46,314 nucleotides of DNA from Clostridia bacterium (lineage in GTDB: Bacteria; Bacillota; Clostridia; Oscillospirales; Acutalibacteraceae), in assembly GCA_017402845.1 (NCBI GenBank), contig JAFPLH010000028.1, forward strand, positions 102,430 to 148,743, in the 5' to 3' direction. Shown piece after piece: positions 29,821-38,504 of this stretch. A model generated the notes under the pieces. That model saw only the letters and a program-made list of their open reading frames with translations, was not told the origin of the DNA and did no database searches. Numbering within the stretch: the first letter of the stretch is position 1; each line of letters starts with the position of its first letter. Made by a program: the position numbers and the translations under genes.

Positions 29821-30384
29821 TTATGAAAAAACATCTGCAAATTCTTCATCGATTTTATCTTGAATCTGTGCAGATAAAAAAGCCATTACCATGATCTGCA
29901 ATGTCCTTTGAAGCTTAACCTTCCCTACGCTGTCTATATCGGGAATATGCGACACCTGCTCGCTAACCATAGCGCTGATCACGTCGAAGCTGTGCGTACT
30001 CGACTTGTCGCATAAATATACCGCTTTGCAAAACTCATTAAATAATACCTCGTCGCTTACCACATCATCAGAGGTATCTTCTACATCACCGTTTATATAC
30101 GCCATCAGATTAATTACATTTTCAATTTTCATAGACCTTCGTATACTATTTATAAGCATTATTCTCACTATCTGGCGTTGTCCGTACCTTTTATTTATTG
30201 GTGACGGCACCCATCCACGCTTTACCCAGTTCTGTATGGTGGAGGTTTCGAGTCCGGTAAGCTCTCTCACCTGTGAAAGCGTTATGCCGTTGGTAAATGC
30301 AAAAAACGGTTTTATCACATCAAATGCACATGAATTTTTATCACTGTCAAATTTCATTACCGTTCCGGGTATATATTGTATCAT
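29821..30384 (-). CDS. DUF1836 family, MerR-like HTH regulator
   Basis: The protein has 187 residues from the ATG at 30384, which has AGAGGTG upstream; the frame is open 26 codons further. Residues about 33-70 form a MerR-like winged helix: LSQVRELTGLETSTIQNWVK, then RGWVPSPINKRYGQRQIVRI. The rest is a helical domain seen in DUF1836 proteins. It is presumably a DNA-binding regulator. Its promoter carries the box also found at the his promoter and at the promoter 200 bases upstream, so autoregulation is a reasonable guess. Confidence 0.85.
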   Translation of the reverse strand: MIQYIPGTVMKFDSDKNSCAFDVIKPFFAFTNGITLSQVRELTGLETSTIQNWVKRGWVPSPINKRYGQRQIVRIMLINSIRRSMKIENVINLMAYINGDVEDTSDDVVSDEVLFNEFCKAVYLCDKSSTHSFDVISAMVSEQVSHIPDIDSVGKVKLQRTLQIMVMAFLSAQIQDKIDEEFADVFS

Positions 30385-30414: not shown

Positions 30415-30443
30415 ATTATACCACACGTTCAAGTGATAGTCAA
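30415..30443 (-). promoter_or_regulatory. Promoter of the DUF1836 gene
   Basis: TTGACT (30443-30438), 17-base spacer, TATAAT (30420-30415) on the minus strand. It lies in GTGTGGTATAATCATAGT; the spacer reads ATCACTTGAACGTGTGG. Confidence 0.85.
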
Positions 30444-30526: not shown

Positions 30527-30589
30527 TTATTTACAAATCTCACGCTTCAAAAAGAACAATTGCAGATCACTTTTAGGTTCATCTGTCAT
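30527..30589 (-). CDS. 20-residue small ORF with strong expression signals
   Basis: The peptide is MTDEPKSDLQLFFLKREICK. AAAGGAGGG lies six bases before the ATG at 30589, and a consensus promoter lies 31 bases upstream. No known family. It could be a functional micropeptide, a leader peptide for the DUF1836 gene about 140 bases downstream, or the remnant of a duplicated gene, since promoter and leader resemble those of the DUF1836 gene. Confidence 0.45.
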   Translation of the reverse strand: MTDEPKSDLQLFFLKREICK

Positions 30590-30619
30590 TGTCATCCCTC
30601 CTTTTGTTACTATACTACG

Positions 30620-30648
30620 ATTATATCACACGTTCATGTGACTGTCAA
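30620..30648 (-). promoter_or_regulatory. Promoter of the 20-codon ORF
   Basis: TTGACA (30648-30643), 17-base spacer, TATAAT (30625-30620) on the minus strand, in GTGTGATATAATCGTAGT. A dyad TCACA-N6-TGTGA (30626-30641) fills the spacer. Confidence 0.85.
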
Positions 30649-30680: not shown

Positions 30681-30709
30681 TTGTACAAGTTCCCCAAACA
30701 AGCTATTTT
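30681..30709 (+). promoter_or_regulatory. Possible promoter of the 45-residue peptide
   Basis: TTGTAC (30681-30686), 17 bases, TATTTT (30704-30709). It is divergent from the promoter at 30620-30648. Confidence 0.4.
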
Positions 30710-30786
30710 CTATATTATGTACTAAAGCCGACAAACAGAAGCAAAACCTTCTGCGGCAGCAAAAATATTTTAAGGAGGCACATTTT

Positions 30787-30924
30787 ATGTGTAACGCATT
30801 TGGAAACAACAGCTGTACTTGGATCATTCTCTTGGTGATTATTCTTATCGTATGTAACGGCAACAACGGCGGCTGTGGCTGCGGTAACGACTGCGGCTGC
30901 AACAACGGCTGCGGCTGCGGCTAA
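30787..30924 (+). CDS. 45-residue Cys/Gly/Asn-rich membrane peptide
   Basis: This is a short gene: MCNAFGNNS, then CTWIILLVIILIVC (one membrane span), then NGNNGGCGCGNDCGCNNG, ending CGCG. It has nine cysteines, seven of them in the tail (or six, counting the Cys that closes the span separately). AAGGAGG lies nine bases before the ATG, and a hairpin AGCCGGCA/TGCCGGCT follows the stop. The span-plus-small-residue tail recalls the very small membrane proteins of spore-formers (YjcZ-like), but I do not recognise a family. Metal binding or a disulfide/thioether-rich surface is possible. It is not a canonical lantibiotic precursor: no modification genes are adjacent. Confidence 0.75.
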   Translation: MCNAFGNNSCTWIILLVIILIVCNGNNGGCGCGNDCGCNNGCGCG

Positions 30925-30957
30925 AAGCAAATAGCCGGCATTTGCCGGCTTACACAA

Positions 30958-35987: not shown

Positions 35988-38504
35988 TTGCAGCAATACG
36001 ATATTACAGGCATGAGCTGTGCAGCTTGCAGCGCAAGAGTTGAAAAAGCTGTTTCAGCACTTAAAGGGATCGACTCCTGCTCTGTCAATCTTCTTACAAA
36101 TTCAATGACTGTCGAGGGTTCAGCCGCCCCGAAGGATATAATCTCCGCTGTAGAAAAAGCAGGCTACGGCGCAAGAAGCAAGAATACGTCACATACAAAC
36201 GAGATCAGCAGCGCCTCTCTTGACAGTGCCGAAAAGGAAACTTCTCTGCTCATAAAGAGATTAGTTTCTTCGTTGATATTTTTAGCCGTACTGATGTATT
36301 TTTCAATGGGACATTCAATGCTCGGTCTGCCGCTGCCCTATTTTTTCGAGAATAATTATATTGCTCTTACACTCATGCAGCTTTTACTTTCGGCTGCGGT
36401 CATGGTCATAAATCAGAAGTTCTTTAAAAACGGCTTTAAGGGTATTATTCACAAAGCTCCCAATATGGATACTCTTGTAGCGTTGGGCTCAGGTGCGTCT
36501 TTTGTATACAGCACATGCGTGCTTTTTGCCATGACTGACACTTTACTTAACGGCAAAACAGAGCTTGTAAAGCAGTATTCACACGAGGTATACTTTGAAG
36601 CTGCCGCCATGATACTTGCACTTATCACAGTAGGTAAAATGCTCGAATCACGTTCAAAGAACAAAACCACTAACGCCATTAAAAGCCTTATGAGCTTAAC
36701 GCCTAAAACGGCTAATATCATACAAGACGGCAAAGAAATTACAGTTCCCTCAGAGAACGTAAAAGCAGGCGATATCTTTATAGTACGTCCGGGAGAAAGT
36801 ATTCCCGTTGACGGCGTTGTGATAGAGGGCGAAAGTGCGGTAAACGAATCAGCGCTTACCGGTGAAAGCATTCCTGCCGATAAAGCAGTCGGGAGTACCG
36901 TTTCAGCGGCTACGATAAATACTGTCGGCGTACTGCGCTGCAAAGCTGTTCATGTCGGGCAGGATACGACACTTGCACAGATAATCAAAACGGTAACTCA
37001 AGCCGCCGCAACAAAAGCTCCTGCGGCAAAGGCTGCCGACAAAGCCGCTTCGATTTTTGTACCCGCTGTTCTCATCATTTCAGCCGTGACATTTGCGCTC
37101 TGGCTAATAGCAGGAGAAGCTGTCGGTTTTTCGCTTGCCCGTGCCGTTTCTGTTCTTGTTATAAGCTGCCCCTGCGCTTTAGGTCTTGCAACGCCCGTTG
37201 CAATAATGGTAGGCAGCGGAGTAGGCGCAAAAAACGGTATACTGTTCAAAACTGCCGCCGCACTTGAAGAAACAGGCAAAGCTCAGATCGCCGTTCTCGA
37301 TAAAACAGGAACTGTAACTCACGGCACACCCTCGCTTACCGATATATTACCGATAAACAGCATGACAAAAGACGAGTTTTTAAAGCTTGCATATTCTCTC
37401 GAAGTAAACAGCGAACACCCTTTGTCAAAGGCGATCTCAGAACAAGGCAAAAAACAGTTTGATACTCCTTTACCGTCAAGCTCATTCAAAACGTTTTCAG
37501 GCAGCGGAGTAAAAGCAGTAATAAACGACAGCACTATTACAGGCGGCAACAAAAGACTTATACAAACGATCTGCACCCTGCCCGACTATGCAGTAAAAAA
37601 GGGTGACGAGCTTGCAGCCGAAGGAAAAACTCCGCTTTATTTTGCAAAGGACAATGAATATATTGGTACAATAGCCGTTGCCGATACCATAAGAGCAGAA
37701 AGTATTCAAGCGATCAAAGAGCTTAAAGACATGGGAATACACGTAGTTATGCTAACAGGCGACAACGAAAAAACCGCAAATGCCGTGGGAAGTGCAGCAG
37801 GTGTTGACAACGTTATCGCAGGAGTACTGCCAAACGATAAAGCTGACGTTATCAAGCAGCTAACTTCTTACGGAAAAACGCTTATGGTCGGTGACGGTAT
37901 AAACGACGCTCCCGCATTGACCGCTGCTGACTCAGGAATCGCAGTAGGCGCAGGAACAGATATTGCTATTGACAGCGCCGACGTCGTTTTGATGAAAAGC
38001 AAGCTTACCGATGTGCCGGCTGCTATCAGACTCAGCAGAAAAACTCTGCGAAATATTCACGAAAACTTGTTTTGGGCGTTCATTTATAATATAATGGGAA
38101 TACCGTTAGCCGCAGGCATTTATTATCCTATTTTCGGGTTAAAGCTTAACCCTATGTTCGGGGCGGCTGCTATGAGTATATCAAGTCTTTGCGTTGTTTC
38201 AAACGCTCTGCGCCTGAATTTTGCAGACGTTTACAACAGCCGCAGAGATAAAAAAGCAAAACCTATAAAAGAAAATATTAAAATTGAAAGGAAGAAAAAA
38301 GACATGGAAGTAACACTAAAAATCAAAGGTATGATGTGCCCTCACTGCGAGGCAACAGTTAAAAAGGCTCTTGAAGAATTTGCACAGGTAGACTGCGCAC
38401 AGCCAAGCTTTAAAGAGAATAAGGCCGTTGTAAAGCTTAATTCGGACATCGACGTTGAATTGCTGAAAAAAGCCGTTATTGATAAAGGCTATGAGGTAGA
38501 ATAA
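35988..38504 (+). CDS. copA: Copper-translocating P1B-type ATPase fused to a C-terminal CopZ-like domain
   Basis: It exports Cu+ across the membrane using ATP. It has 838 residues from a TTG start preceded by GAGGTGAT. The N-terminal HMA domain (1-70) has GMSCAAC (Cys11, Cys14). Then come membrane helices, the phosphatase loop LTGESIP, the CPC channel motif VISCPCALGLATP, the phosphorylation motif LDKTGTVTHG, the HP motif SEHPLS, and the hinge MVGDGINDAPAL. After the last helices a charged linker leads to a second HMA domain (773-838) with GMMCPHC (Cys784, Cys787). A C-terminal HMA is unusual for CopA and reads like a fused CopZ chaperone with its own start site. Confidence 0.95.
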   Translation: MQQYDITGMSCAACSARVEKAVSALKGIDSCSVNLLTNSMTVEGSAAPKDIISAVEKAGYGARSKNTSHTNEISSASLDSAEKETSLLIKRLVSSLIFLAVLMYFSMGHSMLGLPLPYFFENNYIALTLMQLLLSAAVMVINQKFFKNGFKGIIHKAPNMDTLVALGSGASFVYSTCVLFAMTDTLLNGKTELVKQYSHEVYFEAAAMILALITVGKMLESRSKNKTTNAIKSLMSLTPKTANIIQDGKEITVPSENVKAGDIFIVRPGESIPVDGVVIEGESAVNESALTGESIPADKAVGSTVSAATINTVGVLRCKAVHVGQDTTLAQIIKTVTQAAATKAPAAKAADKAASIFVPAVLIISAVTFALWLIAGEAVGFSLARAVSVLVISCPCALGLATPVAIMVGSGVGAKNGILFKTAAALEETGKAQIAVLDKTGTVTHGTPSLTDILPINSMTKDEFLKLAYSLEVNSEHPLSKAISEQGKKQFDTPLPSSSFKTFSGSGVKAVINDSTITGGNKRLIQTICTLPDYAVKKGDELAAEGKTPLYFAKDNEYIGTIAVADTIRAESIQAIKELKDMGIHVVMLTGDNEKTANAVGSAAGVDNVIAGVLPNDKADVIKQLTSYGKTLMVGDGINDAPALTAADSGIAVGAGTDIAIDSADVVLMKSKLTDVPAAIRLSRKTLRNIHENLFWAFIYNIMGIPLAAGIYYPIFGLKLNPMFGAAAMSISSLCVVSNALRLNFADVYNSRRDKKAKPIKENIKIERKKKDMEVTLKIKGMMCPHCEATVKKALEEFAQVDCAQPSFKENKAVVKLNSDIDVELLKKAVIDKGYEVE
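38304..38504 (+). CDS. copZ: Possible separately translated CopZ-like copper chaperone (internal start in copA frame)
   Basis: Starting at the internal ATG 38304, the same frame yields a complete 66-residue HMA domain, MEVTLKIKGMMCPHCEATV onward. AAAGGAAG lies nine bases upstream, which is good ribosome-site spacing within the ATPase coding region. Free CopZ of this size delivers Cu+ to CopA. It could be made alongside the fusion, or it may be a relic of two genes whose stop codon was lost. Confidence 0.5.
   Translation: MEVTLKIKGMMCPHCEATVKKALEEFAQVDCAQPSFKENKAVVKLNSDIDVELLKKAVIDKGYEVE

Follow-up and report, generated by a model that had tools for sequence, protein, structure and literature searches.

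A 45-residue cysteine- and glycine-rich peptide is encoded on the plus strand of the window, the 46,314-nucleotide stretch of a Clostridia bacterium contig that we analysed, and it is probably a late mother-cell sporulation microprotein of the spore envelope, cross-linked via its Cys tail. The computational evidence consists of the gene itself, its conservation, a promoter motif ahead of it, the same motif ahead of cotJ, and co-occurrence with sigma-K. Taken together, the promoter, the phylogenetic pattern and the composition of the peptide make a late mother-cell sporulation protein the simplest account. The late-sporulation expression predicted from the upstream sequences is well supported, and a role in the spore coat is what we infer for the product.

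The coding sequence (positions 30787-30924, plus strand; product MCNAFGNNSCTWIILLVIILIVCNGNNGGCGCGNDCGCNNGCGCG) runs from an ATG start to a TAA stop, and a ribosome-binding site, AAGGAGG (30772-30778, plus strand), lies 8 bases before the ATG; GGAGGCACAT at this site is kept in 4/4 aligned members of the genus. A promoter scan found no sigma-A promoter closely upstream on the plus strand. Downstream of the peptide, a Pfam search identified a Mur-ligase (MurF-type) gene on the minus strand. Fold and terminator scans placed a 7-bp GC-rich hairpin 3' of the peptide gene at 30933-30950; this hairpin and the one after it jointly fold far more favourably than shuffled sequences do (z -5.28). A hairpin at the 3' end had been predicted and is there, but it is accepted as a terminator on the minus strand only, the plus strand lacking a T run after it.

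The 45-residue reading frame is a real gene, widely conserved in gut Ruminococcaceae-type bacteria. With this one sequence as query, relatives turned up in 182 of 300 genomes from its family at E<=0.1, nearly all of them free-standing ORFs with a strong Shine-Dalgarno sequence, and a profile built from 38 members (A2, cut-off E<=0.01) found them in 215/300 genomes and 109/135 genera. Order-wide, matches were present in 88/197 genomes, 69 of them outside the family, many covering the N-terminal half only; across the phylum, an earlier profile (A1) matched in 8/299 genomes. The relatives with names are MAGs labelled Ruminococcus, Oscillospiraceae, Clostridia and similar. Across more than 100 genera, genomes as a rule carry a single copy, with tandem copies at several loci (L013, L015, L095), and a genome of the window's own genus (G268) has SpoIVA and sigma-K and no peptide match. 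Among six loci of this genus, codons 2-24 are under purifying selection, with pS of 0.28-0.63 versus pN of 0.00-0.05 (4-9 synonymous versus 0-3 nonsynonymous differences per pair), and tail lengths differ by whole codons. The original prediction of a real gene with a strong Shine-Dalgarno sequence is thus borne out by the AAGGAGG site, by the family-wide relatives and by the synonymous bias of codons 2-24, and the conserved Cys pattern with synonymous-biased change that it had looked to for support appeared in the 38-member profile and the six genus loci.

The relatives have a common plan, MC(N)xxFGxxSCxW followed by a hydrophobic run of 9-15 residues and then a Cys/Gly/Asn tail. The 86 distinct members are 33-55 residues long with 6-15 Cys; Cys is at position 2 in 79/86, CxW is found in 85/86 and a tail CxC also in 85/86. 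The window peptide contains no Lys or Arg and has its hydrophobic stretch at W12-C23, ahead of the Cys/Gly/Asn tail. The predicted tail of alternating Cys and Gly with Asn proved to be a family trait, since past residue 24 the 86 members are 29% Gly, 29% Cys and 22% Asn. A single membrane span had also been predicted; the hydrophobic segment is present but short, with a median of 12 residues in the 86 relatives (range 9-15, counting Cys), and AlphaFold, run on 13 sequences, gave a single helix at residues 11-24 and a disordered tail with low confidence (mean pLDDT 55, pTM 0.33). The hydrophobic part could possibly be a short or tilted span, a surface-lying helix or a packed helix.

The window peptide matched no family in Pfam or NCBIfam at E<=10, and searches of Pfam, NCBIfam, PHROGs and PDB returned no family for it. 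Against NCBIfam, the 38 members had no matches besides weak TatA/CcmD-type ones. A TatA/TatE translocase subunit was rejected: weak matches came from 9/38 members (best 8.7e-5) and none from the window peptide, and a TatA/TatE profile combined with an amphipathic helix was not found, because the region after the span is the Cys/Gly/Asn tail. Such peptides are presumably often mis-annotated as 'chorion class high-cysteine protein', a name for which a literature look-up returned only a silkworm-related paper. A motif-string search, which left aside small-protein catalogues in supplements, did not find the conserved peptide motif printed in any paper, and literature listings on neighbouring terms held nothing on the peptide. 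In another family of the phylum, two loci (L032:1474 and L039:1489) encode peptides of 28-30 residues with FGGCWWII...CCCC, no tail and strong ribosome-binding sites. These are maybe distant relatives; no good sigma-K-type site was found before them.

The promoter was defined by ab initio two-block motif discovery on 86 peptide upstreams, the set left after three alternative-start or duplicate upstreams were dropped from 89. A CATAnTATG box recurs in the listed upstreams, and the whole motif reads GTAACM-N14/15-nCATAnnATGT, most commonly about 60 bp before the ATG, with a spacing of 14 or 15 between the blocks in 79/86; the site of one relative is GTAACA-CATAGTATGT. The 86 upstreams are not 86 independent events, because they have common ancestry and some come from one genus. 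In held-out scoring, with each test sequence left out of matrix training but site positions picked using all data, scores of at least 10 were obtained for 67/86 peptides, versus 2/396 control genes taken from the same loci and 1/860 shuffles. A score of 7 was reached by 4/396 control upstreams and a score of 9 by 3/396. Eight later peptide records kept out of training, three of them near-identical (L178, L180, L182, L184, L186, L188, L189, L192), scored 8.0-16.4, 7/8 at 11 or above. The promoter is kept where the gene is not beside ctsR, with scores of 13.7-16.3 at L010/L014, L123, L029 and L128.

In C. difficile, sigma-E and sigma-K are reported to have a common -10 element and to be told apart at -35, where ATA marks sigma-E and AC marks sigma-K; the published sigma-K type pairs AC with a -10 of CATAnnAT, and the second promoter of sigK itself has AC and CATATAAT (PMC3789822). 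The B. subtilis sigma-K motif is described as two blocks with a 14-16 nt gap (PMC517825). The peptide motif matches both the C. difficile rule and the two-block B. subtilis form and is therefore assigned to the sigma-K type, with AC in the -35, CATAnnAT in the -10 and sigma-K spacing found family-wide and a weak copy in the window. In that copy, the predicted -35 element (30690-30695, plus strand) is TTCCCC, a weak version of GTAACM that reads GTACCA or GTACCC in relatives from the genus, and the predicted -10 element (30710-30720, plus strand) is CTATATTATGT for a consensus of nCATAnnATGT; both are placed by the motif and the genus alignment. The whole site scores 9.0, the value attained by 3/396 control upstreams, and is among the weakest of the genus, where L094, also with TTCCCC, scores 7.7.

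The spore-coat operon cotJ has the same motif ahead of it. CotJB, which worked as a positive control, was found in 25/26 genomes searched, the window's own among them, and in 17/27 CotJB loci the peptide matrix scored at least 7.5 at a site immediately ahead of a cotJA-type ORF. With a stricter definition of cotJA, 10/12 loci scored at least 7 and 7/12 at least 9 (controls 4/396 and 3/396, over a slightly different stretch). The cotJ site of the window's own genome scores 10.7 with the peptide matrix, and its cotJA-type ORF is CotJA by Pfam (1.9e-15). The CotJ operon (cotJA-cotJB-cotJC) and the peptide thus have their promoter motif in common within the same genomes, whereas the proteins are unrelated and the operons separate. 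In C. difficile, the CD2399-cotJB2-cotD operon is reported to be lowered in a sigK mutant (PMC3789822).

Besides CotJB, the window's own genome has SpoIVA and a sigma-K-grade match (1.1e-87). SpoIVA was found in 257/300 family genomes, and its association with the peptide is modest when completeness is ignored (191/24/66/19, OR 2.3, p 0.017); for well-assembled genomes only the table was 159/50/7/14 (p 1.1e-4), partly tallied by hand and with the completeness of G159, G174, G228 and G244 not seen. Sigma-K was searched in 49 genomes, 21 of which are well assembled with SpoIVA absent or below threshold. Fifteen of these 21 had no sigma-K-grade match (best E about 1e-15 to 1e-21, the level of ordinary sigma-70), and the peptide was absent from 14 of the 15, the exception being a borderline match (E 0.007, G166). 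The remaining six have sigma-K (1e-74 to 4e-92) and the peptide in 6/6 (Fisher p 1.3e-4, 15 versus 6); therefore, the absence of SpoIVA there is probably an assembly gap. Thus, bar the one borderline match, the peptide occurred only where sigma-K did in this 21-genome subset, and there it tracks sigma-K better than SpoIVA. The curated cut-off was passed by 4/49 sigma-K matches only (own genome 293.3 against 298.65), and YabG, a known sporulation protease used as positive control, reached its cut-off in 0/26 genomes. In three other genomes of the family sigK is in two pieces, on one contig in G021:C11 and G223:C1 (about 34 kb and 15 kb apart) and on different contigs in G278 (C20/C21), as expected for a skin-like element that would interrupt sigK. 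Ruminococcus albus 7, possibly but not surely a member of the window's genus, is reported to be without several spo genes (PMC3533761), so the window's organism is not certain to sporulate; possibly, the gene is drifting from sporulation control in this genus, or sporulation itself is decaying.

In the proposed mechanism, a sigma-K-type RNA polymerase of the late mother cell would transcribe the peptide gene during spore-coat building. The peptide would associate with the membrane, or pack via its short hydrophobic helix (residues about 11-24), and its Cys/Gly/Asn tail (CGCG...CGC) would link up, through disulfides (or metal), with itself or with other proteins of the spore surface, making the peptide a small anchor or cross-linker of the outer layers of the spore. 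SpoVM and SscA, which act at the forespore surface, are likewise very small but have no Cys tail; the likeness of the peptide to them is one of size, and no family match was detected. YjcZ-type proteins are tiny transmembrane sporulation proteins of Bacillus in which a Gly-rich part precedes the hydrophobic stretch and a Cys tail is absent. They are like the peptide in being tiny and sporulation-linked with one hydrophobic stretch, but the peptide has its Cys/Gly/Asn tail after that stretch, and 0/38 members match a YjcZ profile at E<=1 in Pfam or NCBIfam, libraries that we take to hold a model of the YjcZ family. CotY/ExsY of Bacillus, CdeC of C. difficile and CsxA of C. sporogenes are far larger than a 45-residue peptide, and no sequence match to them was found. 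Like the peptide, they are Cys-rich; they belong to the self-assembling spore-surface proteins reported from Bacillus and Clostridium (PMC4950064, PMC6101409, PMC7333573, PMC8546674), and a spore location is predicted for the peptide. In B. subtilis, yjcZ has been assigned to the sigma-K regulon (PMC517825).

Outside the window's genus, the peptide gene is often divergent (head-to-head) from ctsR-mcsA-mcsB-clpC, neighbour names that we first took from sequence features; Pfam searches confirmed CtsR and McsB, and McsA and ClpC stand without profile confirmation. Among the matches listed, which cover 146/215 peptide genomes and 150/206 CtsR genomes, the peptide lies within 3 kb of ctsR in 58 of the 93 genomes with both genes listed, head-to-head in 58/58. 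A search for McsB in 60 further peptide genomes found it in 45 and not in 15, with 24 head-to-head within 3 kb by hand count, so that 82/146 listed genomes have the peptide head-to-head with a ctsR or mcsB locus; in some lineages with ctsR not beside the peptide (L064, L066, L074), the gene faces mcsA directly. Duplicate locus L067 (of L052) was left out of the neighbour tally, and L110-L113, where the search pattern missed the peptide, out of the heptad survey. This pairing would suit a role in stress, with the peptide belonging to the CtsR/McsA/McsB/ClpC heat-shock and thiol-stress system, CtsR-controlled from the shared divergent promoter region and either buffering thiols or metal at the membrane or modulating the McsA-McsB kinase; we regard this reading as unlikely. 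The co-occurrence of peptide and CtsR in 300 genomes (164/51/42/43, OR 3.3, p 1.4e-5) is stronger than the SpoIVA link, and CtsR heptads occur in many of the intergenic regions, of which the compact ones (L108, -106) have paired heptads that could serve both genes. However, the pairs are mostly beside ctsR, 160-450 bp from the peptide start, and a CtsR operator is not the favoured peptide promoter; the conserved promoter is of sigma-K type rather than sigma-A with a CtsR operator. Moreover, the peptide is not confined to genomes with CtsR, as 51/215 peptide genomes have no CtsR match. McsB is missing from 15/60 searched, ten genomes with CtsR and without SpoIVA also miss the peptide, and the window's own genome has ctsR on a different contig, as is also seen in its genus. 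The pairing is strong and was therefore also kept in a reading that we consider very unlikely, in which the peptide, made in the mother cell, would partner the McsA-McsB arginine-kinase/ClpC machine at the membrane and tie protein-arginine phosphorylation to the thiol/metal state of the spore envelope while the spore is assembled or germinates. Protein-arginine phosphorylation is reported to hold back B. subtilis spores until it is reversed by YwlE. Delta-mcsB spores of this species are reported to germinate faster (PMC11841064). The pairing with ctsR/mcsAB is perhaps positional; alternatively, that system may be put to use in spores.

Within the window's genus, the neighbour is a 187-residue DUF1836/MerR-type HTH regulator gene (29821-30384, minus strand; PF08876 4.7e-12, PF13411 8.4e-6), divergent from the peptide and adjoining it in 6/6 loci. 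Control of the peptide by this regulator, e.g. as an envelope or metal-stress switch, is highly improbable, although two conserved operator-like promoter copies lie between the genes and DUF1836 proteins have been proposed as regulators of bacterial hemolysin III genes (PMC3146951). The copies (30415-30443 and 30620-30648, minus strand, from scan and alignment) are near-identical strong sigma-A promoters (TTGACT/TTGACA, 17 bp, TATAAT) aimed at the regulator and not at the peptide, and the association is restricted to one genus, with a single weak DUF1836 match (L031, E 9e-5) at all other loci examined. Both carry the imperfect palindrome CACGTTCAWGTG inside the spacer and are conserved in four genus members, unlike the DNA between them; the pair looks like a duplicated autoregulatory operator of the DUF1836 gene. 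The gene is judged a genus-specific neighbour and not part of the mechanism; the adjoining regulator of the original prediction holds for the genus and not in general. A divergent tiny ORF had also been proposed (about 30527-30595, minus strand), but only its ribosome-binding/start site, AAGGAG-GATGACAATG, is conserved and its codons are not, and it probably arose by copying of the 5' end of the DUF1836 gene rather than being a second peptide gene. The least probable reading is that of a secreted peptide (signalling, bacteriocin or RiPP-type) or of a toxin from a small toxin-antitoxin pair. Small size, hydrophobicity, abundant Cys and the tandem copies at several loci would fit it; against this, a leader is absent, NCBIfam gives the members only the weak TatA/CcmD-type matches, the gene is as a rule single-copy, and its promoter is of sporulation type. 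Modification or export genes are likewise missing from the recurrent neighbours, which are ctsR, mcsA, mcsB and clpC, in agreement with the earlier remark that no modification enzymes are adjacent. Overall, the gene, the hydrophobic segment and the tail of that first description stand and its regulator link is not general, and the promoter and the ctsR/mcsAB pairing had gone unnoticed.

As a late-sporulation product, the peptide would be a small candidate cross-linker (by Cys) of the spore surface in gut anaerobes that travel from host to host as spores but whose spore layers are poorly known. This widespread microprotein, unnamed and with a late-sporulation promoter, is also a possible metagenome marker of true spore-formers, and its head-to-head pairing with ctsR-mcsAB-clpC raises the testable possibility that protein quality control and spore formation are connected.

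Elsewhere in the window, 5 kb from the peptide and with no link seen, lies a P-type metal ATPase gene with CxxC metal-binding domains (35988-38504, plus strand, start codon taken from the ORF list only), which we take to be CopA-like by its motifs. In seven genomes, a scan with GTAACMN{15,16}CATANNATG, a pattern too strict for a regulon survey, gave ten matches and its reversed control two; three matches lie before peptide relatives, five have no identifiable gene start, and one precedes a 273-residue ORF. The latter (L139:1576-2394, G103) encodes a protein without a Pfam match behind the same sigma-K-type motif, and a shortened frame of it with nearly the same promoter is found in a second genome (L142 from 1578, G152), making this gene a candidate new sporulation gene.
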